Shown: positions 17,355 to 64,000 of the stretch, in pieces | Layout: each line of letters starts with the position of its first letter | Position numbering within the stretch: position 1 is the first letter of the stretch | Origin: Mesodorylaimus sp. YZB2_4 | Taxonomy: Eukaryota > Nematoda > Enoplea > Dorylaimida > Dorylaimidae | NCBI GenBank assembly: GCA_030248295.1 | Contig: JASANH010000209.1 | Coordinates: 496,001-560,000 of the forward strand | Reading direction: 5' to 3' | Length of the DNA stretch: 64,000 nucleotides | Program-made: the position numbers and the translations under genes | The notes under the pieces: model-generated | Database searches by the model: none | Seen by the model: the letters and a program-made list of their open reading frames with translations, nothing else | What the model was told of the DNA's origin: nothing

Positions 17355-17535
17355 TCTGACTTCTTGCGGGTTCTGAACTTTTAGGTTGAGGGTCGAACAA
17401 GACGGTTGCTTCGAGAGCCCAGCACTTGGGACACCCGGCACAGGGGGTGAGGGGTTTGCAATGAGGGGCTGACTGACAGCGTGGAATATACAGTATAGCC
17501 CAGCTTTGCATTGCCTTCAGGTGGGGATAATTCAA

Positions 17536-19362: not shown

Positions 19363-19435
19363 ATCGACTTTTTGAGCGATTTTTTGTCTGAAAGATGAAT
19401 GTTTTGACAAAACGCAGCACCAGCCAGCAACGACT

Positions 19436-19482
19436 GAGAATGTAGCCGCACACAGGGATGACAGATTCTCAATAAGAGGCTG
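19436..19482 (-). promoter_or_regulatory. Conserved upstream module of gene C
   Basis: On the minus strand this reads CCTCTTATTGAGAATCTGTC, then ATCCCTGTGTGCGGCTAC. It is the same module as upstream of A, E, F, G and H with several substitutions. Confidence 0.5.
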
Positions 19483-19516
19483 TCTATTAGGGTGAAAAAA
19501 GCTCAACTTTACACTG

Positions 19517-19564
19517 CTCATTCCATGGATACACTAGAATTCTAGTGTATCCATGGCTCATTCC
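19517..19564. repeat. Perfect 34 bp palindrome flanked by an 8 bp direct repeat
   Basis: Bases 19523-19556 are a perfect palindrome with core CACTAGAATTCTAGTG and ends CCATGG. The octamer CTCATTCC occurs at 19517-19524 and again at 19557-19564, so the palindrome looks like a tiny insertion with a target duplication. Gene A has a degenerate relative upstream at 13547-13582. Confidence 0.85.
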
Positions 19565-35324: not shown

Positions 35325-36660
35325 TCATTTGCGCCTCGGATCCGCTTGATAGAAGTCAGGCTTCTTCCTGATCTGAACGGGATGTTGTCGTCGTTCCACT
35401 GGAATCACCTCGCTCGCTGTTTCCATAGGTGGCATAGCTTCATTCGTGGTCTGGGATGTTGTTGGTTGATCCGCCCCTGGCGCAATGTCCTTCTCGACCC
35501 GATTGTCTTCAACGCAGGGTGTGTTCTGTTGATTGTCCGAATTGGCCTGCTGTCCAATTGGTGTTGAAACCACGGGTTGTTGAACTGGAAGCACGATCGG
35601 TTGCTGCACAGTCGGATGCCCCGCCTCGACAGTTGGATGCCCTGCATATGGTTCCACCTCGTCCTCGACATGTTCTAGTCGAGGTGACACTCGTTGTCGC
35701 ATCTTATCGGCATGAGATCTTCGAATCTTGCCGTTGGCCTGAAGCTCATAGGAATACAACCCTGTCTTCCTTACCACGGTTGTGGCTTCGAATCCTTTCT
35801 CACCAATCTTCTCAACCCATACCGCCTCCCCTTCAAAAAAATCTCGAGGAGCGGCTTTGCGATCGTGATTGGCCTTTTGTCGTACCAATGCTTGATCCAT
35901 GCGTACCACTGAATTCGGCTTGAGTAGATCTAAGGCTGTTCGAATCCTTCGACCAAAAAGTAACTCAGATGGCGTCTTGCCCGTACCCGAAGGCGGCGCC
36001 GAACGGGAAGAAAGCAAAAACCCCCCAACCTGAGATCCGCATCGTCCTTTGAATTTCGTGAGGCCCCATATCGATCCTTGAATGTCCAAACTGCCCGTTC
36101 CGCTAGACCATTCGTCTTGGGATGATATGGTGTTGACCGCACATGTTTGATTCCATTTCGGGTGCAAAACTGCTTTAACTCATCCGATGTGAATTGTGGG
36201 CCGTTGTCGGATACAATCAAATGAGGTAATCCCAACCTTGCGAACGTGTCTCGCAGCAGTTTGATCGTCTTCTTGGAGCTGGTGTTCATTGTTGGTAGTA
36301 TCTCGAGCCATTTCGAATGCGCGTCGACGATCACTAACCAAAGCTTACCCTCGTATGGCCCCGCATAGTCAATGTGGATTCTCGACCATGGTTCTGCTGG
36401 AATCGACCAAGAATACAATGGGACTTCCATTTGGTGCGCACGATTTCCCTGACAGTCCTCGCATTGCTTCACGAACTGCTCGATGTCGCTGTCGATTCGT
36501 GGCCACCATACATGGAACCTCGCCATTCCTTTCATTTCACTGGACCCTGGATGTCCTTCGTGGAGAGTGTGGAGGACCTTCCTCTAGATTCGTTCTGGAA
36601 TCACAATTCGGCCCTGCCAGAGCAACAGATTGTCTTCCACTGACAACTGTTCTCGCTTCT
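35325..36660 (-). pseudogene. Gypsy integrase region, frameshifted
   Basis: The zinc-binding region (CEDCQGNRAHQ) and catalytic core are readable in one frame from about 36535: first Asp in HIDYAGP, second in VSDNGPQF, Glu in NGLAERAV. After about 36050 the frame shifts by one, and the C-terminal part continues in another frame (TPSELLFGRRIRT, WVEKIGEKG, YSYEL) to the stop at 35325. The RNase H frame ends upstream at 36674 before this region begins. At least two lesions separate the parts. Confidence 0.85.
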
Positions 36661-36673
36661 CGAAGAAAGTATG

Positions 36674-40204: not shown

Positions 40205-41276
40205 CAATTTTTCAAAAAATATGGGCTCTTATGGGCTAGGTTTGGGTTCGATTGCGAATGCGTTGAATTTCAGTTTGGATGGGTTTGGGTTTGGGTTTGG
40301 GTTGGGTTTTGGATTGGGTTCGACTTCAAAATTTTTGGGTTGGGTTTGGGTCGAGTTGTGAACCCATTGTCGGACCTGGCCTTCCAAATTGCCCTGTTGC
40401 GAGAATCTTTTCTGCGAATGCATAACTTTTCGTAGAATGCCAGAGGATAGAATGCTACAAGCCGCCTGGAATCAGCTCCTACAATCTTGCACTGATATGC
40501 TGCTATCTGATAAAGGTTGTTGCCATATCGGTCGGGCGCTTTAGTTAAGAAAAAAAAGAGGAGGACAAATTATGGACAGAAAATAGAAAATAGGCACTAC
40601 AAATGTCATCACGCACAGTGTGTGGCAATAGTCAACGTACATAGTACGCTGACTTTTACATGTTAGGGGACAGAAGTGGAGGCTATAAGATTTACAGGAG
40701 ATAGAAGCAAGGGGGAGACATAGAAGTTGTGCAAGCTTATGTGCTTTCCACATGTCTACTGTATGCAAGCTTATGTGCTTTCCACATGTCTACTGTATGC
40801 CTTTTGCTTTTATGCGTGCCCATAGTTCGCAAGCTCGTACAATGTTTTTGTGCGTTGCGATCATCACGATCATGGCTGTTCGTACAATATGTTCAACAAG
40901 GGCGCAGCGTTTGGAGGGGTCCCTATTGATATTGTTTTTTTTTGCAGCATGGCTCTTGATATTGAACTTTTTTCAAGACGTGATGACGCCACAAGCAATT
41001 TTTTTAATTCTCGAGAGAACACATGCAATAAACTTAAGTAGCAAAATTTTTGACTACTAGTCGATGGAGCCTGATTTTTCCACGCTCGCAAATAGAGCAG
41101 TGTTAACAGCGAATAAGCAATGTGAAGTTATGCCGCACAGTATCACGCTGATAGCCACCCCCTTATTCCAAACCTGTCAACCCCACGTGCGGTTGTGCTC
41201 TCGCTCTCTGCCAGCTGACGCTGTGTTTTTGCAAACCTTCAAATTCATTACAATTCGAGAAGCTCGATCAATCGAA
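40205..41276 (+). repeat. Upstream part of segmental duplication, copy E
   Basis: This segment matches 45335-46202 upstream of gene F: a GGGTTTGGGTTGGG block (40235-40365; 45345-45440), the string ATAGAATGCTACAAGCCGCC, GTACATAGTACGCTGACTTT and the gene upstream module. Copy E has an extra 34 bp tandem duplication (40731-40764 and 40765-40798) and carries at 40855-40980 a segment absent from the corresponding place in copy F. Confidence 0.85.
41160..41205 (+). promoter_or_regulatory. Conserved upstream module of gene E
   Basis: CCCTTATTCCAAACCTGTCA followed by ACCCCACGTGCGGTTGTG and CTCTCGC. It includes a CACGTG hexamer also present at G and H. Confidence 0.6.
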
Positions 41277-42839
41277 ATGGCTCAGTTCTCCGCCAATGCT
41301 TCGTCTTATCTGATCGTCTCGTTGCGGGTCCTCGCCTTGATCTCGCCCAGCCTCGCCTCGAACATCGAAAAACTGACGGGAAAGATGGAGATCGTCTTCA
41401 TCGTTGGCCCCGTCTCACATTATAATCAATCTGATCTGAAGACCGCACTCTCGAAATTGCCAGACTACATTGACCTGGACGAGCAGAAAGTGAGGGTGGC
41501 CATCGTCTTTCCTGTGACAATACGCTACGACGTCCCATTCTCCACGAGCAATGTCTGGTTCAGCCTTTCTGGCGATGTCACTCGGTACCGGGCCTTCATC
41601 AACCATTTCCCATTAGCGATGGGGTTGCCATATCTCGCACAATACGAATTCGATGCCGCCCTTCGCCACGTTCGTCAACACATGTTCGACTTGAACAATC
41701 AAGACCGAGCCAAGTTGATCTTTCTCTACATTCACTCTTCCGCTGACTCTTGGGAGGAGGTGAAAACAGAGGTCGAGGCTCTGCGTCAGAATGGCGTTTT
41801 TCACTACATCGTGTACAGCACTAATGCGGCCGACAGCACCAAAACCCATGCTGAAATCTATGCCCCGAAGAGGAACAAGGCCGTGGCAGCCAACGTGTTT
41901 TTCAAAAATGTCGTCGACGAAGTCTGGAACTTCAGGGACCTCATCTGGCAAGATCTGTGTACGAGCTGCTATTTCTGGGAAGATGGCGGAAAGAAGTGTG
42001 AGCTCGGTCTGCGCCCGAAACTGAGTCAACCCGACTACTCGGGCGACAGCAACGCCAAGTGCGCGGTTGCGCTTGTGAGCGACGTTCTGAAGTGCGATGA
42101 CGAAAAGTGCGAGAAGGAATGCGATCGCCACTTCTCCCAGGGACAAGAGCTCGACTGTGCCGGTGTCTGCCCACCACCACCAGGAATGGAGAGCTGCCCG
42201 ATCTACAACAAGTGCGGCCAATGTACAGCGACTGCTGCATCGACCATGGCTCGGAGCACAAGCATGACTAGAAAGACGACCGCGGTGAACACGACTGGGG
42301 AGAACGTGCAGGCGAAGGAGACGGACAAAGAGGAGGACACAAACTGGATGCTCATCGGGGTGATCATCGGACTGGCCGCTATCGTCATGATCATCGTGAT
42401 CATCATCGTCGTCCTCTTAGTCAAGAAAAAGAAAGCGGCGGCCAAACAATCGAAGAAAAAAGAATCTGCCTCCATTGGCGGTCAAAGTGCCATCAGTTCG
42501 TCGAGGAAAGGACGTGCTGGAGCCAGCGCGATCGGTGGAAGCATGGCTAGGCAGTCCAAGAAACCGAGCTACATGTCTGTGAACCCCAGCCCCAAATCGA
42601 CCAAAGCCAGCGCCGAATCGAAGAAACTGACGAAATCGGTGAAACCTGGCTACGTCAGTGTGAAACCTGGTGCCAAATCGACCAAACCCAATGCCGAGTC
42701 GAAGAAACTGACGAAATCGGTGAAACCTGGCTGCGTCAGTGTGAAACCTGGTGCCAAATCGACCAAACCCAATGCCGAGTCGAAGAAACTGACCAAATCG
42801 GTGAATCCTGGCGGCCGTACGCAGAAACCGCGTGGCTAG
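41277..42839 (+). CDS. Family member E: vWA-like type I membrane protein
   Basis: A single-exon frame of 520 residues from the ATG at 41277 (signal peptide LIVSLRVLALISPSLAS); the frame opens at 41064. The vWA-like region contains NIEKLTGKMEIVFIV, VWFSLSGDVTRYRAFI and DRAKLIFLYI. The Cys module is a variant shared with F and H: after CDRH/CDHQ-type sequence it has LDCAGVCPPPPGMESC without the WPW motif. A Thr-rich stalk, a membrane helix at about 357-382, KKKK and a long basic tail follow. The tail ends with two complete and one partial 27-residue repeats (KKLTKSVKPG...). From the membrane helix onward it is about 95 percent identical in DNA to F, while the vWA-like parts share only about half of their residues. 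Confidence 0.8.
   Translation: MAQFSANASSYLIVSLRVLALISPSLASNIEKLTGKMEIVFIVGPVSHYNQSDLKTALSKLPDYIDLDEQKVRVAIVFPVTIRYDVPFSTSNVWFSLSGDVTRYRAFINHFPLAMGLPYLAQYEFDAALRHVRQHMFDLNNQDRAKLIFLYIHSSADSWEEVKTEVEALRQNGVFHYIVYSTNAADSTKTHAEIYAPKRNKAVAANVFFKNVVDEVWNFRDLIWQDLCTSCYFWEDGGKKCELGLRPKLSQPDYSGDSNAKCAVALVSDVLKCDDEKCEKECDRHFSQGQELDCAGVCPPPPGMESCPIYNKCGQCTATAASTMARSTSMTRKTTAVNTTGENVQAKETDKEEDTNWMLIGVIIGLAAIVMIIVIIIVVLLVKKKKAAAKQSKKKESASIGGQSAISSSRKGRAGASAIGGSMARQSKKPSYMSVNPSPKSTKASAESKKLTKSVKPGYVSVKPGAKSTKPNAESKKLTKSVKPGCVSVKPGAKSTKPNAESKKLTKSVNPGGRTQKPRG
42612..42836 (+). repeat. 81 bp tandem repeats coding the cytoplasmic tail of E
   Basis: Units 42612-42692 and 42693-42773 plus a partial unit to 42836 encode AESKKLTKSVKPG(Y/C)VSVKPG followed by AKSTKPN. 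Gene F has one complete unit (47520-47600) and one partial. Confidence 0.9.
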
Positions 42840-43580
42840 TGAAAAAGTGTGCTGATAATGAGAAGAAGGGTGAAATGTGATCAGCTAGTGTGATGAATGC
42901 TCGTTTTTTCTCGAAGTAAAATCATTAACTCCGGACTAACATGCGTGCTATCGATCGGCGAGAGTCAAATTGTGGTGCCGCTCGGTATTTGCTAGTGTGA
43001 TCATCATGATCACGGCTGCTTACAAAAAGTCTTCAGGTAAGGGCGCAGGATGCGCTTGCGTGGAGTCTCTGCTTTTATGTAGCTCGATGCATAGATCTTA
43101 TAGCCTGCCACTTCTCAAGACATTGGGTGGCAGCATTTACTCTGGCCATACGCCGAATTAATGTGGCGTCTGGCATGCGACTGTGCCCTTAACTCTTGCT
43201 TCTCTAGGTCGCTCTCGTCGATGCCAATCCGTTTCGAATGCGGGCGCAAATAGGTGCAATTTTATTTTGCGATTCTCGTTATCGATCGATTTTCGATTGG
43301 GCTTTGCGAATTCTTCTACAAGACAAGGGTTTGCAAAAATGCAATGTATGATACTGTCTCTTGCTATAGGTTGGAACACCTTCACGTGTGCTAGCTTTAA
43401 ATCACTCCTGCACAGTCCCCACCGCAACTGAATGATAATGACAGCCTCTATTACACAACCCTCTATCATTCGAAACTGTTCGTCTCCTTTTCTCCTCAGT
43501 CGTTCGTTCTCGAAAATGATTTCGGGTTCATCAGGACTTTTATTCCCAGCTGGAATGGCATCTGATCCAAAAAGGAGAAG
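42840..43580. other. 3' flank of gene E; no gene
   Basis: The first 170 bp are the conserved family 3' flank (ATGCTCGTTTTTTCTCGAAG, then TAAAATCATTAACTCCGG). The sequence to 43070 is a diverged relative of 47760-47890 downstream of F. Beyond that I see nothing recognisable. Confidence 0.5.
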
Positions 43581-44370
43581 TCGGGAGGCGATGGCTCAGC
43601 TGGTGAAGGGTGTTGATCCGCCTTTCTGGCCGGCAACCCTGTCTGGGAGACCGAGGTTCTATTCTGGTGGAGGACGACACTTTAGTAGTTTGACGCTGGC
43701 TTTAGACACCTGGCTCTTGGCGCCACCCCTGCTACTGTCAAATGGCGGACGCCCACCCAAGGGATACAGAATTGGGAAACTCCTCGAACACCAGCCGGGA
43801 AGGTCCCTAAGCTAAGCCTGAGCCCCTTCTCACCCAGTATGGCCTCGTGTGGATGTGCTCCCGGTGAAGACACATTGAACCCGCTGTGAGAGCGTGGTCG
43901 GGCCTCCAGGGATAGGTCGGGATCACCTTTTTCTGGGATCGGGATCAGGGCAAGCCCGATCGGGATCGGGATTTTTTGTTTGAGGTCATACATTGTCTGC
44001 ACACGCGAAGGAGATGAGTCTATTTTCCTCACTAAAGCACACTTTAGTCATCCAGGTTTTTGATCAGGTCGAGTTTCAGTCATTGTAAATAAGCTTAAAT
44101 TGATGAGTACATTCGCAGTTTCGATAAGCGTCCAGTGAGGTTAGCCTAAGATAAGTAAAATCAGTGTTGCTATCATTACCGATTTGAGTCGATGTTGCTG
44201 TTGCCTCTTCATGGCAGATATGATGGATCAGAGTGTACCATGCTTATGCATATCATAATCATTAGCATAATCCCGATGCCACGATGTCAGGATCAGGATC
44301 GGAATCGGGATCCCAACCTACCCCTAGTCATCTCACAGGTTTGTTTATTGTATCTGACTAACCCAGGCCA
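43581..44370 (+). mobile_element. tRNA-derived SINE, copy 2, split by an hAT-like element
   Basis: The head GATGGCTCAGCTGGTGAAGG contains an A-box and GAGGTTCTATTCTGG a degenerate B-box. The body matches copy 1 at 19761. It is interrupted at 43907-44326 and resumes with GTCATCTCACAGG, corresponding to GTCACCTCACTGC at 21331 in copy 1. Both known copies therefore carry a later hAT-like insertion, at different sites. Confidence 0.6.
43907..44326. mobile_element. 420 bp hAT-like element with GGGATC arrays
   Basis: Ends are inverted: CAGGGATAGGTCGGGATC at 43907 and the inverse of TAGGGGTAGGTTGGGATC ending at 44326. Both subterminal regions are reiterated GGGATCGGGATC. The right flank GTCATCTC and the left flank GTCGGGCCTC could be one target site altered by an indel and substitutions; the uninterrupted copy 1 has GTCACCTC at that position. 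No coding capacity. Confidence 0.6.
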
Positions 44371-45334
44371 GCTAATATGATTAAAAGTCCCATGGAGAAT
44401 TGGGCTGACGCGGCCGAACCCGCAAAACTTTTTAAAAAACATAGGGACAAGCTGTGGGAAAAGTTTGTGTAGGCTTTTATAAAATAGAAATCCGCTCCAT
44501 GAATCAAAAAAAGATTGTCTTCGAAGGAGAGGGCACCTTGTCGAGCTCAAGAAAGCATAAGATGAAACATTTCACAAAACAGCGTTTGGAAATGGGGTGG
44601 GGGGTATGGCTGAAGTGGTCGACCATTTTTGAAGGGGGTTCGCGGTCGGCATGCGGTCAGGGGGAAGGTCGAGATTTTGTGCGGTCGACCTTTAGGGATG
44701 GCCCCTTGACGATTACTGACGAGCAGTCAGAGGGGCCGCTCACGAGACTGTGCGGGCAACCTGAATCAGTACTGTAGTAGAACCAGTCAGGATTAGATCT
44801 AGCCCCGCTCTACTGTATACCTCACGTGAGGCCTGTGCGCGGAAGTGCGGTATTCACGCGCGGCAAAGCGGACAGGGAAGAAATCCTTATCTAGAGATGC
44901 CAGTTACACTGTGCCGAATGAGACCCATTGGCGATCAATATGGTAATGCCTTCTTTTGAATTCACCAACCACCAGTCCAGGTTTCCAGCTCCTTTGTGGC
45001 TCTCCTGACCATTTATAGCAGAAAATGTCTGCTGGAGCTTGTTCAATGCAGAGGAACGAGCTTCCACAGTACCTATAATGTGCATAATTGTTTCAGTCTT
45101 ACAAGCGGAATGATCTTACAAGCGAGCGGTCCAAGATTTTCATGGCCCAAGCCTGGTGGAAAAGCTCATCCTGCAGAGTATCGATCACTAAGACATCGAC
45201 TCCTACGTCAGCCCCTCATCAATGGTGCATGGCGTGCCCCTGGGTGCCTGCATCTGCTCTGAGCGATGACACAATAGCTTAACTACTGGTCGAATGCACC
45301 CAGTAAGATGCCAAGCTGACGACCAGGTCCAATC
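44371..45334. other. No supported gene
   Basis: Short frames on both strands lack recognisable domains. Confidence 0.4.
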
Positions 45335-46202
45335 TGGACGGCGCGAATGGGTTGGGTTTCAGTTTTTAAAAATGGGTTTGGGTTGGGTTTTGGATTGGGT
45401 TCGACTGCAAAATTTTTGGGTTGGGTTTGGGTCGAATTGTGAACCAATTGTCGGACCTGGTCTTCCAAATTGCGAGAATCGTATCTGCGAATGCATAACT
45501 TTTCGTATAATGCCAGAGGATAGAATGCTACAAGCCGCCTGGAATCAGCTCCTACAATCTCACACTGATATCGGTGCAAATATTACTGCCGCGCTGCTAT
45601 CTCATAGAAGGTTGTTACCTTATCAGTCGGGCGCTTTTGTTAAGAAAAAAAGAGAAGGAAAAATTATGGACAGAAAATAGAAAATAGGCGCTACAAATGT
45701 CATCACGCACATTGTGTGGCAATAGTCAACGTACATAGTACGCTGACTTTTACATGTTAGGGGACAGAAGTGGAGGCTATAAGATTTACAGGAGGGGGGG
45801 GGCATAGAAGTTGTGCACGCGTATGTGCTTTCCACATGTCTACTGTATGCCTTTTGCTTTTATGCGTGCCCATAGTTCGCATGCTCGTTCAACGCTCCGT
45901 GATGACGCCACAAGCAATTTTTTCAATTCTCGAGAGAACACATGCAATAAACTTGAGTAGCAAAATTTTTGACTACTAGTCGATCGAGCCTGATTTTTCC
46001 AAGCTCGCAACTAGAGCAGTGTGAACAGTGAATAAGCAATGTGAAGTTATGCCGCACAGTATCACGCTGATAGCCACCCCCTTATTCCGAATCTGTCATC
46101 CCCGCGTGCGGTTGTGTTCTCACTCTCTGCCGACTAACGCTGCGTTTTTTCACGCCCCCCGTCTTAATACTGCATCAGTATTCGAAATCTCGAAAAATCA
46201 AA
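45335..46202 (+). repeat. Upstream part of segmental duplication, copy F
   Basis: Matches 40205-41276 (copy E) but is shorter, lacking the segment found at 40855-40980 and the extra 34 bp tandem unit. The GGGTTTGGGTTGGG block lies at 45345-45440. Confidence 0.85.
46079..46125 (+). promoter_or_regulatory. Conserved upstream module of gene F
   Basis: CCCTTATTCCGAATCTGTCA, then TCCCCGCGTGCGGTTGTG. It has GCGTGC where E, G and H have ACGTGC. Confidence 0.6.
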
Positions 46203-47666
46203 ATGGCTCGATTCTCTGCTGATGCTTCGTCTTATCTGATCACCTCGTTCTTGATTCCCGCTTTGATTTCGCCAAGCTTCGCCCCGAACATCGAAAAGAT
46301 CACTGGCAAAATCGACATCGCCTTTATCGTTGCCACCAACGAAGAGACTGAGCACAAGGATCTGAGGGAGGCATTCTTGGATCTGCCAAACTATGTCGAC
46401 CTGGGCGAGGAGAAAGTCAGGGTGGCCATCGTCAGCGCTCTGAGGGGGTTTTTCATCTGGAACGTCGCCTGGAATCTCTGGTTTAGGCTGTCTGGCGATA
46501 TCGATCGGTACCTGGCCTTCGCCGAAGAATTCAAATGGACAGGAGCAGCGTTGAACGAAAAATACGAGTTCCATACAGCCCAAAAATACGTCAAAGAATC
46601 CCTGTTCAATTTCAAGGACCAAGAGCGAGCCAAGTTGGTCTTTCTCTACATCAAATACTACGCGCAAGATTGGACGCTCTTGAAACGAGAGATCGACGAA
46701 ATGCGTTCGGAAGGCGTTTTCCACTACATCGTGTACAGCACTGATGCGACTAAGAGCACCAAAAACTACTCTGAAATCTACGCCCCCAAGAGGACCAAGG
46801 CTGTGACGAAAAGAGCGATGTTCCGATATACTATCGAAGAAGCCTGGAAATTCAAGGAGCTCATCTGGCAAGATCTTTGCACGAGCTGCTACTTCCAGCA
46901 GAAAGGAGGGAAGAAGTGTGCGCCTGCCCTGCGCCCGAATCTGAGTCAACCTGACTACCTCGGCGATGGCAACACCAAATGCCAGACTGTGGCTCCAAGC
47001 GACGTCCTGATGTGCGATGACGGAAAGTGCGAGAAGGAATGTGATCACCAGTTTCCCCAGGGACAAGAGCTCGACTGCGCCGGCGTCTGCCCTTTGCCAT
47101 CAGAAATGGAGAACTGCCCAGCTTACAGCAAGTGTGCCCCATGTCCGACAACGACGATCATGGCTACAAGCACGACTATTAAGACGTCCACGATGAGCAC
47201 GGCTGGGGAGAATGTGCAGGGAAAAGACACGGACAAAGATGAGGACACGAACTGGATGCTAATTGGGGTGATCATCGGACTGGCCGCTATCGTCATGATC
47301 ATCGTGATCATCATCGTCGTCCTCTTGGTCAAGAAAAAGAAAGCGGCCGCCAAACAATCGAAGAAAAAAGAATCTGCCTCCATCGACGGTCAAAGTGCCA
47401 TCACTTCGTCGAGGAAAGGACGTGCTGGAGCCAGCGCGATCAGTGGAAGCATGGACAGGCAGTCCAAGAAACCGAGCTACATGTCCGTGAACCCCAGCCC
47501 CAAATCGACCAAAGCCAGCGCCGAATCGAAGAAACTGACTAAATCGGTGAAACCTGGCTACGTCAGTGTGAAACCTGGTGCCAAATCGACCAAACCCAAT
47601 GCCGAGTCGAAGAAACTGACCAAATCGGTGAATCCTGGTGGCCGTACGCAGAAACCGCGTGGCTAG
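46203..47666 (+). CDS. Family member F: vWA-like type I membrane protein
   Basis: A single-exon frame of 487 residues whose first ATG at 46203 begins the signal peptide (LITSFLIPALISPSFAP), supporting the same start choice in the paralogues. The vWA-like region has NIEKITGKIDIAFIVA, LWFRLSGDIDRYLAFA and ERAKLVFLYI. The Cys module is of the E type (LDCAGVCPLPSEMENC). The membrane helix is at about 351-376, and the tail has one complete and one partial 27-residue repeat. It lies about 3.4 kb downstream of E in the same direction, in a duplicated segment, and is its closest paralogue in tail and flanks but not in ectodomain. Confidence 0.8.
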   Translation: MARFSADASSYLITSFLIPALISPSFAPNIEKITGKIDIAFIVATNEETEHKDLREAFLDLPNYVDLGEEKVRVAIVSALRGFFIWNVAWNLWFRLSGDIDRYLAFAEEFKWTGAALNEKYEFHTAQKYVKESLFNFKDQERAKLVFLYIKYYAQDWTLLKREIDEMRSEGVFHYIVYSTDATKSTKNYSEIYAPKRTKAVTKRAMFRYTIEEAWKFKELIWQDLCTSCYFQQKGGKKCAPALRPNLSQPDYLGDGNTKCQTVAPSDVLMCDDGKCEKECDHQFPQGQELDCAGVCPLPSEMENCPAYSKCAPCPTTTIMATSTTIKTSTMSTAGENVQGKDTDKDEDTNWMLIGVIIGLAAIVMIIVIIIVVLLVKKKKAAAKQSKKKESASIDGQSAITSSRKGRAGASAISGSMDRQSKKPSYMSVNPSPKSTKASAESKKLTKSVKPGYVSVKPGAKSTKPNAESKKLTKSVNPGGRTQKPRG

Positions 47667-49304
47667 TGAAAAAGTGTGCTGATGATGAGAAGAAGGGTGA
47701 AGAGGTAACGAACTCGTGTGATGAATGCTCGTTTTTTTTCTCGAAGTAAAATCATTAACTCCGGCTCTGACATGTGTGCTATCGATCGCAGGTCGAATTT
47801 CGTTAGCGCCGCTCGATTGTTGATAGTTGCGATCATCACGATCATGGCTGTTCGTACAATATGTTCAACAAGGGCGCAGCGTTTGGAGGGGTCCCTATTT
47901 ATGTTGTTTTTTTGCAGCATGGCTCTTGATATTGAACTTTTTTCAAGACGCTCAATGGAAGCATCAACTCTGGTTCTCTATTCGATCTGTCGAGTCTATG
48001 TGGCTGCTGATCTCTAGCTCTTCCTTGGTCCTCTTCGTTGAAACAATCAGTTGCATATGCGGGCGCCAATAGGAGCAATTCTAATTGTGAATTTTTTAAA
48101 TGACATCGAAATTCGCCATTGCGACGTTAAGCTCGCTCTGCTGGCATAATTAGATGGGCGATCGAAAAACGCTCACAGAAGTCGATGAAGCGAATATTAC
48201 TTGTTTTATTAACTAATTAAAACCCCCTTTTTCGCACGATATTCACCACCTGTTCTCTCTTCACCAGCGCCATCGGAAAAACACAACAGCAGGCGAGCGA
48301 CGCCAGTCAGTCAGTCTTGTTTTTTTGTTGGTGATCAGTTTGAATCGCGCTTAGACAGTCTAAAGGTCCACCAAATTTGAAATTAGAAGTTAAAAGCTGA
48401 GGGTGATTTTGGAATTGTTTTATCAGAACTTTGAACTCTGCTTAGCAGGGGGTGCTGCCCATACGACGTAGTTTTGGGCCGTTTTGAGGGGGCCTTTGAA
48501 AAAACGATTTTGTACGACAGGGGAGGGGGTGTTAAAAAAGCTTATTTTCATACGACGTCGTATTTGAATAGCTCCAACCCACAAAATTCTTACGCTGCAA
48601 AAAATCACATCAAAAACCCGTCGTTGATTATGTACCTGGTCGCTGACCTTGCACGCCAGGGGGTGGGATGGTCGAGCTGCTTTGACAGTGAGAAGGAAGA
48701 TGGAAGCCGCACGAGGAGACATTGTCGGCTGTCGAATAGGCAAGGTTCAAAGCCCGCCCGCCATCGCCCGAGGAAGTCAGTGTCGAAAGCAGGGTGCCGT
48801 CGAGTAGAGTTGCTCCCAGTAAAGGCACGCTGTGTGTGCTGGTCCCCGCACAGCCGAGCTTATAAGGTTTGACTGACTGCTAAAGGCAAAACGGGCTTCG
48901 GGCCATTTAAAAAACCTATGGATATGTCGATCAAAAAGCATGTTCTAATGGGAATATCGACTGGAAATGCAAGCAAAGCCGCACTTTGCCATGAATGGAA
49001 ATCATAGAGGATGCAATCACAAAGCGGGAGGGCGACCACAATTCGAAGGAGTTGGACATATACAGTAGGTGATAGAAGCGTATATTACATATTTGTCCAA
49101 ATCCTTGACAACCCAGCACAAGCAGATTTCTTGAGATGCTCATGACGATGGCAAATATCGATGAATGAGCCTGCCATACAAGATTTGGCATCCATAGATT
49201 CAAGGAGCGCACATCATGCAAAAGAGTTAGTGATTTTACTTGGAGAAAACACGATCACACGAGTTGATCACCTTTTCACTCATCATCTCACCGCATTCTT
49301 GCAC
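47667..49304. other. 3' flank of F and dispersed repeats; no gene
   Basis: Bases 47667-47765 are the family 3' flank. Bases 47826-47950 are nearly identical to 40855-40980 upstream of gene E. Bases 48460-48570 (inverse) are copy 2 of the repeat at 31768. Bases 48960-49040 resemble the inverted-repeat arm at 26075. Bases 49220-49304 are the 3' flank of pseudogene G. I see no gene. Confidence 0.6.
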
Positions 49305-50224
49305 TAACTACGCGATTTTCGCACCCGCCTAGCAGTAGGTTTCCCCGATTTCATTGGGCTTTTCGCTGGCATTGGCTTTAGGCGATTTGGAACTCGGTTT
49401 TATGGACACATTGCTGGGTTTCTTCGACTGCATGGCTGGCCATGCTGCCTCCGATCGTCAGGTCAGCCATCATGCTCGTATCAGCACCTTTCCAGACAGT
49501 CCCTGCACTGATTGAGCCTCCACCACCACGGATCGTCCTCGAAGCTGCAGCAGCAGAAGCAGCAACAGATTTTTTCTTCATCAGTTTCTGCTGCTTTTTA
49601 GCTGCGTCATGTTATGGTCATGTTTGTACTCATAGTCGTCGTTGTTGGACATGGGTGGCACTCGATTTAGTGCGGGCAGTTCTCCATTCCCGGTAGTGGC
49701 GAGATGGCGTGGTTCCTCTCGATCCTCCCGCAGATTCCAGTGCAGTTGGGCTTGTGTTTCCAGGGCCACTGGCCATTACATTCCTCATCGCATTTTTCGT
49801 CATTGCACACGAGAGCATCGCTCGGACCCACAGTCTTGCATTTTGTGCTGCTGTCGCCAAAGTAGTCGGGTTGACTCGATTTCAGGCGGAGGCCAGGCGC
49901 ACACTTCTTCCCACTCTTCTCCTGGAAACGGCAGGTCGTGCACAGATCTTGCCAGTTGAGGTCTTTGAAGCCCCCTGCTTCTTCAACCGCTTTTTTGAAC
50001 AGAACATCAAGCGGCATGGCCTTGTTCCTCTTTGGGGCAAAAATCTCAGGATATTTTTTGTTTTTCATGAGTGATGTTGCTTCGTCCTGGTGTGAAAAGA
50101 CCAAGGCGATGTCGATTTTGCCATTGATCTTTTCGATTTTCGAAGCCAGGCTTAGCGAAAACAGGGCGAGGACCAGTAACGAGGTGATCAGATGAGACGA
50201 AGCATTGGAAGTGAATCGGGCCAT
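49305..50224 (-). pseudogene. Family member G: broken vWA-family gene
   Basis: On the minus strand an ATG at 50224 starts a normal signal peptide (LITSLLVLALFSLSLAS) and the first vWA-like strand (KINGKIDIALVF). About 140 residues of the vWA-like domain are then missing, the frame resuming at IFAPKRNKAM. The Cys module follows but ends at a TAA at 49667-49669, just after MENCPH. The stalk and the membrane helix are deleted; tail sequence (KKKSVAAS, GGSISAGT) continues at 49581-49378 and then loses frame. The tail and 3' flank are closest to gene D. The upstream module is intact (50300-50350), so the locus could still be transcribed. Confidence 0.85.
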
Positions 50225-50299
50225 TGTCATTGTTCGAGCTTTTCGAATTGTGATGAACTTGAAGATGGCGGCTTGATAAAGGCAAGGTGAGTTACAGTA

Positions 50300-50350
50300 G
50301 CAGAGTGAAAACGCGACCGCACGTGGGGATGACAGATACGTAATAAGGAG
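50300..50350 (-). promoter_or_regulatory. Conserved upstream module of pseudogene G
   Basis: On the minus strand: CTCCTTATTACGTATCTGTC, then ATCCCCACGTGCGGTCGCG. The module remains well conserved even though the gene is broken. Confidence 0.55.
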
Positions 50351-50400
50351 CTGATACTGGTCAACTTTACTATTTGCATGGACCATTCTGTCGATTTTAT

Positions 50401-50960
50401 CAAAATTATTAGAAAAACATGTGGACAGATTGCTGCGTAATTATATTCAGATTTCGCCTGTTTAACATGGGTTCTGGAAGTGTGGTGAAGTTGGATTTTG
50501 GTTGATGGTCCACCTGTCTAGGGGTAGGGATTGCTGACAACTACACCACACCAATTAGTGCTTACCCAAAGTACGTCGACCATACGGCGTAAATCGACGG
50601 TGTTAACTTCGAGAGGGAAAACGAGCCATTGACTTTTATTACTACGTACGATGATATATGTCTGACCCACAAGAGAATACACGTCCTTATATACCCTCAA
50701 AAAATGCACCGAGCCTAGCCAGAAAATAAGTATGTCCAATAATTTGGATATATGCAAACCAGGCAAATGCACAGGACCTGGAGAAGGCGAACTGTTCTAA
50801 CGGAATAGAAAAGTATTCCGACCAGTCTTATGCGCCCAAGCATCCTCAAGACAGGTTGAAAGGTCAGTCCAGGACAAGAACTATATCACTGCTGTTGGTC
50901 TTGGCCAGAACTGTTGATTGTCGATATATTGAGCGGGAGATCAAATGAACTTCGCAACAG
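50401..50960. other. No gene seen
   Basis: Spacer between pseudogene G and the LINE relic; nothing recognisable. Confidence 0.4.
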
Positions 50961-52150
50961 ATCTATGATTGGTTGGATAGTCCTAATTATAAGTTCGTCC
51001 TGGCAGTTTATTTCGATTTGGCGAAAGCCTTCGATAAGATTCTTCATTGCTCTTTATCGTCGACACACCAAAATCATCATCGTGTCCCAGTCAAGTTGCT
51101 TGCGTGGATCAAGTCCTATTTATCGAGTCGAACCCAGCATGTCTCAATTCGTGACTGCGCCTCAGCTGACTTGCCATTGGTCAGTGGCGTCCCTCAATGC
51201 AGCGTGCTTGGGCCTGTATTATTTATCGCCTGTGTGGATCCTCTACTTGTGGATATCCTGACTTTTCCTTGGCTGCTTTTGCGGATGATTGTCGGCTTCT
51301 CGCTCCTATTAAAAATCTGGATGAAATAATTGGTAGACTTGCATTCAATACCGACAAAAAAATCCGTTGTTTATCGTCTCCGGGTATAGGGCATAGGGCA
51401 CAAGTAGTTCCCTGACCTGGCGCAGAAGAACAAATCTTACTCACAATAGACATGACTAGGTCGACCAGCAAATCAGGCGATATGCAAAGCACACTACACA
51501 CTATACATAGGGGGGGGGGGGGGGGCTGGATCTCCTTGACTCACGAGTAACAGCCAAAGTCAGGTTCCAACACATGCAAAATGCCCTCGACTCTCTTGAT
51601 CTCTGTCTGGTTCTGCCATACTCTATCCCGATTGGACTTTGATCCCAAACGAATATTCAGTGGCGTGGTGGAAGGCAACAACATTGCAAAAGCTTGAGTA
51701 TGGTGGCGTTTGTTGGGACCCTATTCTGTCCAAGGATATTCTGGAACTTGAAAGAGCTCAGAAGCTAGCCGCTCGATGCTGCTTCAATGACTGGACTTCC
51801 TTACGAATCTGCTTTGAATAAATTCGGTTAGTTATCTCTTAAAACCTGTCGTAAGCAACTGAAGCTTATCCAGTTTTATAAATTTTTTTATGGAATTCAG
51901 GAATATCACCACCAATACAAGAAACAAGTCGATTCTGGTCGTCGTCACAGCCAGAGATCAGTCCAGCCTCACCATCTTGTGGTCCCTGCTCATCATACAG
52001 TCGCTTACACGCAGTCGTTTGATTTTTCTGCAGTCACCTTATGGAACAAGTTACCAGCGGGCATAGCCGAGAGCAAGCTCAAGGGATCTTTTTATCGTCA
52101 CTTAAAAACACGATTTTGTAACTTTTCGATTGGTTTGCGTCTTCCTTGAC
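50961..52150 (+). mobile_element. Non-LTR retrotransposon (LINE) relic
   Basis: Pieces of a non-LTR reverse transcriptase lie in successive frames: FDLAKAFDKI near 51010, then SYLSSRTQHVSI, SGVPQCSVLGPVLFI, and the FADD active-site region near 51280 in a different frame. After a G tract, KLEYGGVCWDP near 51690 and ERAQKLAARCCF follow, and then the C-terminal part (AVTLWNKLPAGIAESKLKGSF) near 52030-52110. The order is that of the 3' half of a Jockey or CR1-like ORF2. Stops and frameshifts show it is dead and 5'-truncated. Confidence 0.8.
51510..51525. repeat. Poly-G tract in the LINE relic
   Basis: Sixteen consecutive G interrupting the reverse-transcriptase relic. Confidence 0.95.
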
Positions 52151-52500
52151 CAATACTTATTCTGGTAGTTTTTAATGTTCTGCTCTTCTCCATGTCTTTC
52201 AATGCCTGAGTGCAGTCTAACTGCTTCATTGAAAGTGTCATAAGTCATAATCCACCATAAATCAGCCCGCACTATTCGTGAAGATGTTTTTCAAGCAGCT
52301 GTGATAACGAATAGAGCAATATCAGAAGAAAGTGCGAGGCGAACGCAAAATTTGGCAATCGCAGATCGAGAGCACTAATGGTTAGAGTCTCCAGTGGAGT
52401 TAATAATTGAACTTCAAGAAAAACGAGCATTGATCACACGAGTTCATCATCACCTTGTCACTCGTCATCTCAATGCACTTTTGCACTCGCCACGCGATTT

Positions 52501-53865
52501 CTACGGCCGACCTCCACGTTTCACCGATTTCGTCAGCATCTTTGATTCGACATTGACTTTGGTCGATTTGCCTCCGGGTCCCGCGAAAATGTAGGCAGGT
52601 TTCTTGGACTGCACAGCCATGCTGCCACCGATCGCGCTGGTTCCAACACCTTTCCTGAATCCACTGCTGCTACTTTTCTCGCCATGGGTCATCTTCGAAG
52701 CCGCGGCACAGTCTTTTTTCTGCAGTTCCTGTTGCTTTTTGGCCGCCGATTTCTTTTTCGTGACCACGATCGCAACGATGACGATCACGACGATCACAAT
52801 GAGAGCGACCACGCCCATGATCGCCCCGATCAGCGTCCAGTTCGTCTCCTTTTCGCCCGAGGTCGTGTTGTTCTCGCTCTTCTCATCGTCAGCCATGGTC
52901 GCGTTCGTTCGTGTAGACATGGTCGATGCAGTGGCCGTGGTACACTGGCCGCACTTGAGGTAGATCGGGCAGTTCTCCATTCCTGGCGGTGGTGGGCAGA
53001 CACCAATGCAGTTGAGCTCTTGTCTTTGGGGCAGCTGGTAATCGCATTCCTCCGCGCAGTTTGGATCGCTGCACTTCACAACGTCGCTCACAGTCACAGT
53101 CTGGCATTTGGCGTTGCCGTCGCCGATGTAGTCACGTCGACTAAATTGGGAACGCAGGCCAGGGCCACACTTCCATGCTCCTTTTTCCTGGAAATAGCAG
53201 GTCGTACACAGATCTTGCCAGATGAGGTCTCTGAACTCCCAGGCTTCTCTGACAGCGATCTGGAAAATCACGTCGCCCGCAACAGCCCGGTTCCTATTTG
53301 GGGCGTAGGCTCTACCGAAGTCTTCGGCATCCGCGGCTGCACGGCTGCAAACGATGAAGATGGAAACGCCATGCCGACGCATAGCCTCGACCTCTAGTCC
53401 CAAGAGATTCCAAGTGAAGTTTGAACTTGTAATGTAGAGAAAGACCACCTTCGCTCGGTCTTGATCGTTGAAGTCGAACACTTTTTCTTTGACGTGATTC
53501 AAGGCGCCATGGAAGTCGTAGTAGTCCAAGAACACATCTCTGGGGATTCTGTTTATGGAGGCCCAGTACTGAGTGACATCGCCAGAAAGGTTAAACAAAT
53601 CGTACCTAACCTTCGATCTGCGTGAAGCTAACACAGCGGTGATAATGGCCACTCTGACTTTCTGCTCGCCCAGATCGACGTAGTTTGGCAATGCCGAGAA
53701 CGCAGTCTGTATTTCCTCGAACTCATTATGCATAAAGGGGGAAACAAGGAAGGCGATATCGATTTTGCCGGTGATCTTTTGGATGCTCGAGGCGAGGTCG
53801 AACAAAGTCAAGGCGAGGACCGAGAACGAGGCGATCAGACGAGACGACGCAAAGAATCGAGCCAT
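52501..53865 (-). CDS. Family member H: vWA-like type I membrane protein
   Basis: A single-exon frame of 454 residues from the ATG at 53865 (signal peptide LIASFSVLALTLFDLAS); the frame opens at 53934. The vWA-like region contains SIQKITGKIDIAFLVS, FNLSGDVTQYWASI and DRAKVVFLYI. The Cys module is of the E/F type (LNCIGVCPPPPGMENC, LKCGQC). The stalk has NAT and NNTT glycosylation sites, the membrane helix is at about 343-368, and the tail is shorter with KSTKVNVESKMLTKSVK, a single version of the E/F tail repeat. It reads toward the LINE relic. The family 3' flank follows the stop at 52500-52400 on the minus strand. Confidence 0.8.
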   Translation of the reverse strand: MARFFASSRLIASFSVLALTLFDLASSIQKITGKIDIAFLVSPFMHNEFEEIQTAFSALPNYVDLGEQKVRVAIITAVLASRRSKVRYDLFNLSGDVTQYWASINRIPRDVFLDYYDFHGALNHVKEKVFDFNDQDRAKVVFLYITSSNFTWNLLGLEVEAMRRHGVSIFIVCSRAAADAEDFGRAYAPNRNRAVAGDVIFQIAVREAWEFRDLIWQDLCTTCYFQEKGAWKCGPGLRSQFSRRDYIGDGNAKCQTVTVSDVVKCSDPNCAEECDYQLPQRQELNCIGVCPPPPGMENCPIYLKCGQCTTATASTMSTRTNATMADDEKSENNTTSGEKETNWTLIGAIMGVVALIVIVVIVIVAIVVTKKKSAAKKQQELQKKDCAAASKMTHGEKSSSSGFRKGVGTSAIGGSMAVQSKKPAYIFAGPGGKSTKVNVESKMLTKSVKRGGRP

Positions 53866-60118: not shown

Positions 60119-60712
60119 AGACCCCCACTAAAAAAGGTCCATGAAATGGACCAACCCCTAGGTGCTTAGGAATAGAGAACACAAACCTGCCACCAAAAAA
60201 CCGTGCGAAAAATTTCCCCTCTCCACGCGCTTCTCTATTCCTAAGCCCTGACAAATGATACCGTTGTGCGTTGCTGCAGGAACACTGAAGCTTCGTGGCA
60301 TGCGGTCACTACAGTCACGTTCTATGTATAACGTGAAATAAACATTGCACAGGAAGCTTGCTCTTTGACACAATGAGTAACCGACAAAGCCATTATATCC
60401 GCACACTTGGCATTCTATTACTTGACCTAGTTTACTTGAAAAACTAAACGAATCTCTGCACCGAACCCATAACAGCAAAATCTCATGCCTCCAACCATGC
60501 AAGCAATGCAGCAAATGCTTCTATGCATTATGACTCGGCATGCAATGTATTCTCCACGCTATACCTAACGCAAGCGTATATCAGGGCTTAGGAATAGAGA
60601 AGCGCGTGGAGAGGGGAAATTTTTCGCACGGTTTTTTGGTGGCAGGTTTGTGTTCTCTATTCCTAAGCACCTAGGGGTTGATCCATTTCATGGACCTTTT
60701 TTAGTGGGGTCT
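60119..60712. mobile_element. 594 bp element with 132 bp near-perfect inverted ends
   Basis: Segments 60119-60251 and 60581-60712 are inverted copies with only a few differences: outer end AGACCCC(C)ACTAAAAAAGG, inner end CTATTCCTAAGCCCTGA. Each arm contains TAGGAATAGAG twice in opposite orientation, so the arm itself can fold. The 330 bp centre has no gene. Confidence 0.85.
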
Positions 60713-60974
60713 TATGAATACGAGCATGTACTGTATGTCGGCTGGCTCCTTGTTTCCTCCTAGCTTTGGGCCATAGCTAAGTAGTATATGTGTGCGTCGC
60801 GCGCCTGCAGCTAGCTGGGGTCGAACCCCCCAGCTTACCATACCAGCTTATTATCACCCCTCAGCTACTGACCATTAGCCTTAAGCCAAGCCCCGCAGGG
60901 CCTTAATTAGCTTACCAACCTAATAATCGTCAGTCCCTTGAGGCCCTTCTTATCACTGTGAGCCCCCTTATCAG
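60713..60974. other. No gene seen
   Basis: Spacer with reiterated TTAGC and CTTATCA words leading into the tandem repeat. Confidence 0.4.
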
Positions 60975-61086
60975 TCATTAGCTGAACCTTATCAATATCT
61001 AGTCATTAGCTGAACCTTATCAGTATCTAGTCATTAGCTGAACCTTATCAGTATCTAGTCATTAGCTGAACCTTATCATCGACCAG
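60975..61086 (+). repeat. Four 28 bp tandem repeats
   Basis: Unit TCATTAGCTGAACCTTATCA followed by (A/G)TATCTAG; the last unit differs at its end (TCGACCAG). Confidence 0.95.
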
Positions 61087-61188
61087 TCAGTAATGCAAGC
61101 TCCAATCGCGCCACATGATCTTCTTATCATATCACAAGTGTTTAATCAACCATTGATGAACAATGATTTTAGAAAAGTGAAAAGTTTT

Positions 61189-61259
61189 GCGCTCGCTAAG
61201 AATCGAACCCGCCTCGCTCGATTGGGAGTCGAAAGTTCTACCAGTTGCGCCACGGGGGC
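61189..61259 (-). tRNA. Degenerate tRNA-Gly(CCC)-like sequence
   Basis: On the minus strand the sequence GCCCCCGTGGCGCAACTGG has an acceptor strand and A-box. An anticodon stem of five pairs holds the loop CTCCCAA, and GGGTTCGATTC is a B-box. The T-stem pairs only three of five positions and the acceptor stem five of seven, so it is probably a tRNA pseudogene or a SINE head. It lies 60 bp from the foldback element. Confidence 0.4.
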
Positions 61260-61343
61260 AGTTTAGCAAGAGGGTCGAGTGTGCACAGTGAAGACAATGG
61301 ATTATTTGAACGCGCAGACATACATGTCATCGAAACCTACAGC

Positions 61344-61915
61344 GGAGCATTCAGAGCTGCTCGTTTAGTGGCAGGAGCAGCTCCTCCTTGGTGAGGAGCA
61401 GCTCGGAGCTGCTCATTTTGTTGCAGGAGCAGCTCCTCCTTGGTGAGGAGCAGCTCGGAGCTGCTCATTTTGTTGCAGGAGCAGCTCCTCCTTGGTGGGG
61501 AGCAGCTCGGAGCTGCTCATTTTGTTGCAGGAGCAGCTCCTCCTTGGTGGGGAGCAGCTCGGAGCTGCTCATTTTGTGGCAGGAGCAGTTCCTCCTTGGT
61601 GGGGAGCAGCTCGGAGCTGCTCATTTTGTGGCAGGAGCAGCTCCTCCTTGGTGGGGAGCAGCTCGGAGCTGCTCATTTTGTTGCAGGAGCAGCTCCTCCT
61701 TGGTGGGGAGCAGCTCGGAGCTGCTCATTTTGTTGCAGGAGCAGCTCCTTCTTGGTGGGAAGCAGCTCGGAGCTGCTCATTTTGTTGCAGGAGCAGTTCC
61801 TCCTTGGTGGAGAGCTGCTCAGAGGTGCTCATTTCTTGGCAAGAGCAGGTCCTCGTTGGTGGGAACTGTTTGGATCTGCTCATTTTATGGCAGAGCAGCA
61901 CTTTGGTAGCAGGAG
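61344..61915 (+). repeat. 52 bp tandem array, left arm
   Basis: About eight good units from 61396 (phase GAGCAGCTC-G-GAGCTGCTC) and two degenerate ones to about 61915. Each unit holds two short palindromes, GAGCAGCTCGGAGCTGCTC and GGAGCAGCTCC, separated by ATTTTGT(T/G)GCA. No frame contains stops, and since 52 is not a multiple of three all three plus frames stay open. Confidence 0.9.
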
Positions 61916-62076
61916 TAGCTCCTACTTTGTGGGGACCTTTCCATTTTATCAGGTGAGCGGCAAATGTGAGAGCATACACCATGCCAGTTTCCTACAAATT
62001 CAGTCAGGGCGTTCACTTTGTACCTTAGGGGGCTTTACTTCATGGTCCATGTTGCACTTATAAGCCTACAACCCCG

Positions 62077-62256
62077 CTCATGTTAGCGGGGTAGCTGCTC
62101 ATGTTAGCGGGGGAGCTGCTCATGTTAGCGGGGGAGCTGCTCATGTTAGCGGGGAGCAGCTCATGTTAGCGGGGAGCAGCTCATGTTAGCGGGGAGCAGC
62201 TCATGTTAGCGGGGAGCAGCTCATGTTAGCGGGGAGCAGCTCATGTTAGCGGTGGA
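62077..62256 (+). repeat. 20-21 bp tandem array, left arm
   Basis: About nine copies of CTCATGTTAGCGGGG(G)AGC(A/T)G, with the tail AGCAG or AGCTG alternating between groups of units. Confidence 0.9.
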
Positions 62257-62413
62257 GCAATCACTGCCCTGATGCTTCCATATATTCTTCCTCATATGAA
62301 TGTGAAGAGAGGGCTAACTGCCAAGTGACGATAAAAGGCAACAGTTTTGTTGCATCTGCCAGTTTCATATTTTTTCGAGTTGGCGAATGGTTCGGTTTGG
62401 ATTACTCTCGAAA

Positions 62414-63028
62414 ATGGTCAACGATAACGATAGCTCGTCTGGCGAAAATGGCGACGATGAATGCACAAAATGTGACAAGACATTTTGTTCGAAATATTCA
62501 TTGAGGCGTCACATGAAATCTGTTCATGGAAAGCGAGCGCGGACCAGTACTGTTGATGGTAGCAAGGATGGTGATAGCGAAGAAGCGGATGGCGGCGGAG
62601 ACAATGACGATGACGATGAAATAGAACCATCCAATAAAATTTGGCGGACATTCTTGAAACGGATCTTGCGTAATTGGAGGGAAGATGATGATTTTCAAAT
62701 GCCAGAAACGGAAGATGATTTTCTAAACCTCAAAGATCAAGTCCGAGAGGAGTTGTACAGTCAAACGGTCAAACTTTTGAACGACTACAATGCACTGGTC
62801 GATTCTCCAATATATAAAAAGATTCGAGTCACTGAAGATCGCCTATTACAATTGATGGATGACGAAGATAGTGATGATCAGCAAGAAGCCTTCCAAACGG
62901 CCTTCGATCAGAGGAAAACATTGCTATTGAATTTTTTGAATGACAACCTAGATGTAGTTGAAAATTATGCAGAAACATCAGACAGTGGAGAGGAAGATGG
63001 AGAAGAAGAAGAAGAGGACAGTGATTAA
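62414..63028 (+). CDS. C2H2 zinc-finger protein inside the foldback element
   Basis: An intact frame of 204 residues from the ATG at 62414 (an upstream in-frame ATG at 62387 would add nine residues). An acidic start is followed by one C2H2 finger, ECTKCDKTFCSKYSLRRHMK with the second His in SVHGK. An Asp/Glu-rich linker leads to a helical region (IWRTFLKRILRNW, FLNLKDQVREELYSQTVKLL, SPIYKKIRVTEDRLLQL, FDQRKTLLLNFL) and a very acidic tail. I recall zinc-finger proteins in other invertebrates with a similar D-P-x-Y-x-K-I and R-K-x-x-L region but cannot verify this. No transposase motif is visible. It may bind the element's repeats; that is inference. Confidence 0.7.
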   Translation: MVNDNDSSSGENGDDECTKCDKTFCSKYSLRRHMKSVHGKRARTSTVDGSKDGDSEEADGGGDNDDDDEIEPSNKIWRTFLKRILRNWREDDDFQMPETEDDFLNLKDQVREELYSQTVKLLNDYNALVDSPIYKKIRVTEDRLLQLMDDEDSDDQQEAFQTAFDQRKTLLLNFLNDNLDVVENYAETSDSGEEDGEEEEEDSD

Positions 63029-63131
63029 TCCACCCAACTGATTTTATAAAACTACTGTGCACAAACATTAATACCTTGATATTCAATCATGATCAATATT
63101 TATGTTTCTTTTAATAAATAGCTACTCACCT
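63029..63131. other. 3' flank of the zinc-finger gene
   Basis: AT-rich, with AATAAA at 63113-63118, a plausible polyadenylation signal for the zinc-finger gene just before the right arm. Confidence 0.5.
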
Positions 63132-63260
63132 GCTAACATGAGCAGCTCCCCGCTAACATGAGCTGCTCCCCGCTAACATGAGCTGCTCCCCGCTAACATG
63201 AGCAGCTCCCCCGCTAACATGAGCAGCTCCCCCGCTAACATGAGCAGCTACCCCGCTAAC
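63132..63260 (-). repeat. 20-21 bp tandem array, right arm
   Basis: Six copies of the inverse unit (GCTAACATGAGCAGCTCCCC), fewer than the nine in the left arm. Confidence 0.9.
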
Positions 63261-63429
63261 ATGAGCGGGGTTGTAGGCTTATAAGTGCAACATGGACCAT
63301 GAATTAAAGCCCCCTAAGGTACAAAGTGAACGCCCTGACTGGATTTGTAGGAAAATGGCATGGTGTATGCTCTCACATTTGCCGCTCACCTGATAAAATG
63401 GAAAGGTCCCCACAAAGTAGGAGCTACTC

Positions 63430-63975
63430 CTGCTACCAAAGTGCTGCTCTGCCATAAAATGAGCAGATCCAAACAGTTCCCACCAACGAGGACCTGCTCT
63501 TGCCAAGAAATGAGCACCTCCGAGCTGCTCCCCACCAAGGAGGAGCTGCTCCTGCCACAAAATGAGCAGCTCCGAGCTGCTCCCCACCAAGGAGGAGCTG
63601 CTCCTGCCACAAAATGAGCAGCTCCGAGCTGCTCCCCACAAGAACTGCTCCTCCGAGCTGCTCCCCACCAAGGAGGAGCTGCTCCTGCCACAAAATGAGC
63701 AGCTCCGAGCTGCTCCCCACCAAGGAGGAACTGCTCCTGCCACAAAATGAGCAGCTCCGAGCTGCTCCCCACCAAGGAGGAGCTGCTCCTGCAACAAAAT
63801 GAGCAGCTCCGAGCTGCTCCCCACCAAGGAGGAGCTGCTCCTGCAACAAAATGAGCAGCTCCGAGCTGCTCCTCACCAAGGAGGAGCTGCTCCTGCAACA
63901 AAATGAGCAGCTCCGAGCTGCTCCTCACCAAGGAGGAGCTGCTCCTGCCACTAAACGAGCAGCTCTGAATGCTCC
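63430..63975 (-). repeat. 52 bp tandem array, right arm
   Basis: About nine inverse units; one (about 63620-63665) is shortened to roughly 35 bp. The two arms thus differ in unit number and in this deletion while single-copy parts of the arms stay nearly identical. Confidence 0.9.
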
Positions 63976-64000
63976 GCTGTAGGTTTCGATGACATGTATG

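Follow-up and report, generated by a model that had tools for sequence, protein, structure and literature searches.

The window analysed here, a 64,000-nt stretch of the 145-Mb genome of the nematode Mesodorylaimus sp. YZB2_4 (contig C11, bases 496001-560000), contains near its right edge inverted arms (363 nt at 98% and 511 nt at 97%) with a zinc-finger open reading frame (ORF) between them (Table 1). A preliminary description of this DNA had reported inverted arms built from two kinds of tandem repeats, an intact 204-residue C2H2 gene and a polyadenylation signal. All three were recovered: the arrays have 52-bp and 20-bp units and are mirrored on the right, the ORF encodes 213 aa (204 aa from its second Met), and an AATAAA hexamer follows it. 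No gene besides this ORF was recognised in the window copy. The arms are long and internally repetitive, and the number of repeats is unequal between left and right.

The ends of the element lie further out than first described, when the arms were given as 61319 to 64000. Position 61319 was rejected as a terminus because the arm homology runs further out, and the right part of the element, past the window edge, was read on a 9-kb stretch (L021). On both sides the homology takes in a tRNA-Gly-like sequence and, further out, a 28-bp tandem repeat before it reaches a terminus, which is AGTAGT at 60780 on the left and its mirror image at L021:4498, 498 bases past the window, on the right. The full length is 3719 bp. 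Both termini are bordered by TAGCTA, a target duplication of 6 bp where one of 8-9 bp had been expected. ARAGORN calls the tRNA-Gly-like sequence in 7 of the 18 zinc-finger loci scanned and in two of three stretches of the partner elements described below (one as tRNA-Glu).

Table 1 Features of the zinc-finger element in the window (positions are those of the window; L021 is the stretch covering the right end).
Feature	Position	Strand	Remarks
Left target-site duplication TAGCTA, 6 bp	60774..60779	.	Partner at L021:4499-4504, past the window
Left outer terminal inverted repeat, type 1	60780..61332	+	Begins AGTAGTATATG, reaches ACATGTCATCG; homologous to the PolB-element terminal repeat
28-bp tandem repeat inside the outer terminal repeat	60969..61078	+	
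tRNA-Gly-like sequence, anticodon ccc, inside the outer terminal repeat	61187..61260	-	
Left 52-bp array, palindrome-rich, 10.5 copies	61354..61899	+	
Left inner-arm spacer, between the 52-bp and 20-bp arrays	61900..62075	+	Source of the genome-wide arm pattern
Left 20-bp array, 9 copies	62076..62259	+	
Zinc-finger ORF, 213 aa	62387..63028	+	204 aa if started at the second Met, 62414
AATAAA hexamer, polyadenylation-signal-like	63113..63118	+	Read from the sequence
Right 20-bp array, inverted copy	63132..63266	-	
Right inner-arm spacer	63267..63442	-	
Right 52-bp array, inverted copy	63443..63965	-	
Right outer terminal repeat, first part	63987..64000	-	Runs on past the window to L021:4498

About 70 bp to the left of the element lies a separate inverted-repeat element (60123-60265 and 60567-60709) with 143-bp arms that are 95% identical and 301 bp apart. 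Elsewhere in the window, retroelement-like frames occupy 35930-38710 on the minus strand, with an rve match at C11:532119-532346 (window 36119-36346). Several similar predicted proteins at 12072-19521, 27934-29556 and 41064-53865 have, by eye, a common N-terminal region and a hydrophobic stretch, and they look as if they formed a local gene family. In the genome at large, many contigs have an rve match in a long frame some 700-1000 bases from their start (C78:717-1013, C128:718-1014, C174:718-1014), and some have one close to their end. It looks as though contigs were bounded by a single retroelement, through telomeric placement or assembly breaks.

The distribution of the element across the genome was profiled with the zinc-finger protein and with an arm pattern taken from the single-copy inner-arm spacer. 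The protein had 55 six-frame matches, which merged by position into 43 gene loci; 21 of the matches span residues 1-213, and 17 of these are stop-free. The spacer was detected at 64 sites with up to three mismatches (0 for the reversed control). A spacer lay within 3.5 kb of the gene on both sides at 19 of the 43 loci and on one side at 18, that is, at 37 in all, with none at the remaining 6, and 8 of the 64 spacers had no gene nearby. The gene is thus usually, and not always as the preliminary description had proposed to check, enclosed by such arms. The same description had set against its reading a single host gene with geneless arms elsewhere; this genome presents a different picture, because the gene accompanies the arms at most loci. 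Residues 32-213 are also encoded at 98% identity at C575:34839-35384, within a 341-aa open frame and with no arm spacer near.

Twenty copies were retrieved with their flanks, three of which (L024, cut by the contig start, L037 and L038) are without at least one end. The copies range from 3.0 to 5.9 kb, and their genes are on average 98.5% identical (16 copies). The element has been amplified recently.

In all 17 copies with both ends found, AGTAGT was present at both, and 16 of the 17 are flanked by an exact 6-bp direct duplication, each of a different sequence. Chance agreement of a 6-mer is 1 in 4096 for one end pair, several candidate ends were inspected per copy, and in L026 a second, implausible end pair also passed the duplication test. 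The remaining copy, L036, has no duplication, and its AGTAGT ends are of two sorts. The 20-base terminus, allowing three mismatches, occurs at 32 genome sites, vs 7 for the reversed control. The outer terminal repeat is of two types, with lengths of about 550 bp (type 1) and about 310 bp (type 2). Both lengths are within the range of Mavericks, and the whole arms exceed that range in some copies (e.g., a 1659-nt self-match in L023). According to the available text of PMC8097293, vertebrate Mavericks have terminal repeats of 46-1447 bp with the end motif (AGT)2//(ACT)2, and their 6-bp duplications are perfect. By the literature label, (AGT)2//(ACT)2 termini together with a perfect 6-bp duplication are the marks of Mavericks/Polintons, and the element carries both.

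The outer ~550 bp of the arm also serves as the terminal repeat of larger elements with a decayed family-B polymerase (PolB) gene. Two of these partner elements, L049 (contig C868) and L050 (C1063), have a type-1 repeat at one end; the terminal repeat of the window copy matches that of L049 at 78% and 85% and that of L050 at 84% and 88%. Their decayed polymerase gene starts 5.0-5.4 kb inward of the terminal repeat and can be aligned, in pieces (36-53% for L049), with a 1114-aa frame that is intact in L052. This whole frame had no Pfam match at E 0.01, though parts of it matched: minus the N-terminal 300 residues, it hit PF03175 (63.2 bits, E 2.9e-17). L049 is 94.5% identical to C269 from the terminus to 2.1 kb inward and 95.5% identical to L050 over the next 5.3 kb, reaching into PolB; in the interval that separates its terminal repeat from the PolB block, L050 does not align with L049. 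The N-terminal part of PolB is present at ≥91% in seven contigs, and a type-1 repeat lies 5.0-6.3 kb outside PolB in fitting orientation in at least four of them (C868, C1063, C510 and C541). The repeat-site counts are lower bounds because just part of the candidate sites was scored (40 of 180, 40 of 154 and 40 of 84 in three site searches). In C904 the repeat near PolB has the opposite orientation, and for C591 and C418 no type-1 repeat near PolB was among the matches listed. None of the stretches read spans a whole PolB element from one end to the other. The partner elements also carry a C2H2 gene with several fingers, whose frames are broken and which has no detectable likeness to the protein of the window.

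A second, separate PolB lineage, on C269, also starts AGTAGTATAT; two copies on C381 and another on C48 fix this start, their match setting in at that point. The C269 repeat and its neighbouring PolB were ruled out as one element: the start of the PolB element lies at L042:3828, and its expected repeat was absent from the six stretches read. Among viral contigs, three stretches fit the pattern of PolB relatives and none was confirmed.

Given these ends and partners, we regard the window element as a non-autonomous Maverick/Polinton derivative carrying one zinc-finger gene, with a probability of roughly three in four. The family-B polymerase gene is absent from the 3.7-kb zinc-finger element and decayed in the elements sharing its terminal repeat, and therefore we speak of a non-autonomous derivative and not of a full member. 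The preliminary description had called the locus a foldback element; it is indeed mobile and foldback-like, but not a classical Foldback, because its end motif and 6-bp duplications are Maverick-like and PolB elements have its outer arm as their terminal repeat. A Maverick integrase supplied in trans would insert the copies, and a protein-primed PolB, likewise supplied in trans, would copy linear DNA starting at the ends. How Mavericks excise is described as unknown in the available part of PMC2836005. 'Non-autonomous Polinton/Maverick' and like phrases had no occurrence in a library of open PubMed Central papers, a scope outside which subscription papers and Repbase reports fall.

As for the genes such a reading would need, no retroviral-type integrase was detected within AGTAGT ends in the stretches read, the rve search having 150 matches listed of 526 candidates. 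One rve frame, on C397, was considered as the Maverick integrase and ruled out, as it is by its letters a Copia-type retroelement. The Pox_A32 ATPase had two genome matches, on C213 and C704, neither among the contigs listed with these ends. The former is a stop-free frame of 266 aa (C213:82662-83258, 3.8e-28), possibly from another virus-like element.

The two types of terminal repeat may bear on how the ends are copied and exchanged. Five of the 20 copies (L023, L027, L031, L033 and L040) have the type-2 outer repeat, in which only the first ~nine bases are common to type 1, and the junction, arrays and gene beyond it are the same. Copies mostly have one repeat type on both sides, with the exceptions of L036 and L039. 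Both ends of L032 are hybrid, type 2 outside and type 1 inside. In L039 one end is built in this way, and the opposite end is a type-2 repeat followed by a gene that also adjoins the repeat in L050. The type-1 copy L022 and the type-2 copy L023 differ at 2 of 837 positions across the gene and near flanks. With gaps counted, the outer 300 bp of 16 copies average 66% identity from element to element, against 94% when both ends of a single element are compared, and in four of the 16 (L025, L034, L039 and L040) an end is less like its partner than like an end of another element. Without gaps, own-end identity is ≥95% in 15 of 16 elements and 83% in L039. A tree of 19 gene copies requires at least two changes of terminal-repeat type, the two hybrid rows being uncounted; 14 of its 16 inner branches are open, and the order of the changes is not given by it. 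Near-identical genes with ends that are far more alike within than between elements indicate, as read from the aligned copies, that very young copies have swapped whole ends, in most cases at both sides, while the gene stayed nearly unchanged. By proximity only, type-2 ends are also associated with L049-type polymerase fragments on C831 (6.4 kb away), C921 (adjacent), C250 (9.2 kb) and C418 (12.7 kb). At C225:61308-76302, two facing type-2 ends are separated by 15.0 kb, which is as long as a complete Maverick.

Under the Maverick reading, the two ends would be made alike by pairing of the displaced strand's ends in replication, or by conversion between copies, and a foreign end could thereby be copied to both sides of the element. 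Ectopic recombination or gene conversion of chromosomal copies, in place of replication through a linear intermediate, could also have changed both ends, and we give this route somewhat less than an even chance. It has been proposed for Galileo, including both ends of one subfamily around the centre of another, in the available text of PMC3573991. Leaning slightly against it, exact target duplications are kept in copies of both end types, so the exchange took place before insertion or else without altering either junction.

The zinc-finger protein has a single C2H2 finger at residues 25-47 (PF00096, E 5.3e-6), and apart from the finger it is long, acidic and mostly helical in a low-confidence structure model (mean pLDDT 44). 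Across 14 gene copies of equal length, one of them (L037) with a stop and the other 6 of 20 excluded, pN/pS was ~0.25. Among the distinct variants of these copies, 22 of 41 were nonsynonymous vs 80.5% expected (p 9e-5 by a simple binomial that ignores the shared ancestry of copies and transition bias). In the 10 nearest gene copies, with L024 left out, the variant counts in the nonsynonymous/synonymous comparison were 7 and 7. The gene is under constraint.

Should the gene instead be a passenger that came from the host or a Maverick and was trapped between the arms, it would have no role in mobility, and the constraint would be a remnant of its earlier function or come from a few source copies. 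We consider this unlikely. It would fit a protein with one finger only, which had no homologue in the PolB-element stretches read and none confirmed among 138 viral-contig stretches that fit the pattern; in other searches the protein matched three unnamed PHROGs families (best E 6e-4) and nothing in NCBIfam. Also, many copies are recent, and neutral change has therefore had little time. Against it stand the depletion of nonsynonymous variants, the open frame kept in most full-length copies, and the lack of a clear host paralogue among the 55 six-frame matches.

A role for the protein is hinted at by a palindromic 9-mer, GAGCWGCTC, that is common to the 52-bp and 20-bp units. It occurs 24 + 7 times on the left and 5 + 24 times on the right, 60 times in the core, vs none in the ORF, two in the rest of the window and none in six partner stretches; tandem copying inflates this number, and both arrays may be of common origin. 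The presence of the 9-mer in both arm arrays suggests that the protein may bind the arms. Our guess, on what is the likeliest use of a single-finger protein, is that it may serve the element by binding this 9-mer.

The element might also be moved by a different DNA transposon of the integrase-like kind that makes 6-bp duplications, Ginger2-like or IS3EU-like, the ends of the PolB elements being convergent. IS3EU has 6-bp targets, and the Maverick integrase was not found with the present ends in the stretches read. Ginger2 also has 6-bp targets, but the available text of PMC2836005 gives it TGTNR ends and RTATAY targets, in contrast to the AGTAGT ends and 16 diverse duplications here, and we regard this origin as quite improbable. 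Even less credible is an element of the Foldback/Galileo kind, from the P or Mutator superfamily, with arms grown by tandem repeats, which would share long repetitive arms, unequal repeat numbers and chimeric copies with Galileo, but Galileo is bounded by 7-bp sequences in the available text of PMC3573991, vs 6 bp in 16 of 17 copies here, and the end motif here is that of Mavericks, with an outer arm that belongs to PolB elements.

The Maverick reading can be extended, tentatively and at clearly less than even odds, to a satellite of Mavericks that would encode just its own DNA-binding protein, hold dozens of palindromic sites for that protein in its arms, and parasitise Maverick replication and integration via captured ends. 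If true, such a satellite would keep moving after one helper lineage dies, by taking both terminal repeats at once. Two mostly matching ends, of unrelated types around a near-identical gene, are a natural record of end copying and exchange, and the element makes it possible to ask concretely if a zinc-finger protein carried by a transposon binds the arms of that transposon.

Among known systems, Drosophila FB-NOF likewise has a gene enclosed in foldback arms; NOF is transposase-like, whereas the gene here encodes a C2H2 protein. Galileo of Drosophila mojavensis, in the available text of PMC3573991, resembles the element in its tandem-array arms, unequal repeat counts, chimeric copies and exchange of terminal repeats, and differs in its 7-bp duplications and P-type transposase, as opposed to Maverick ends and a conserved non-transposase gene. 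The endogenous mavirus-like elements of Cafeteria are Polinton-related too, and terminal repeats on truncated elements must have regenerated there; they are virophage genomes with many viral genes in a protist host (available part of PMC8547959). Relative to Mavericks/Polintons themselves, which measure 12.7-24.6 kb in the available text of PMC8097293, the zinc-finger element is smaller (3.0-5.9 kb), is without a recognised polymerase, integrase or capsid gene, and has arms lengthened by palindromic arrays. It shares with them the (AGT)2//(ACT)2 ends, terminal repeats several hundred bp long and the 6-bp duplications, and its partners in this genome carry the family-B polymerase.
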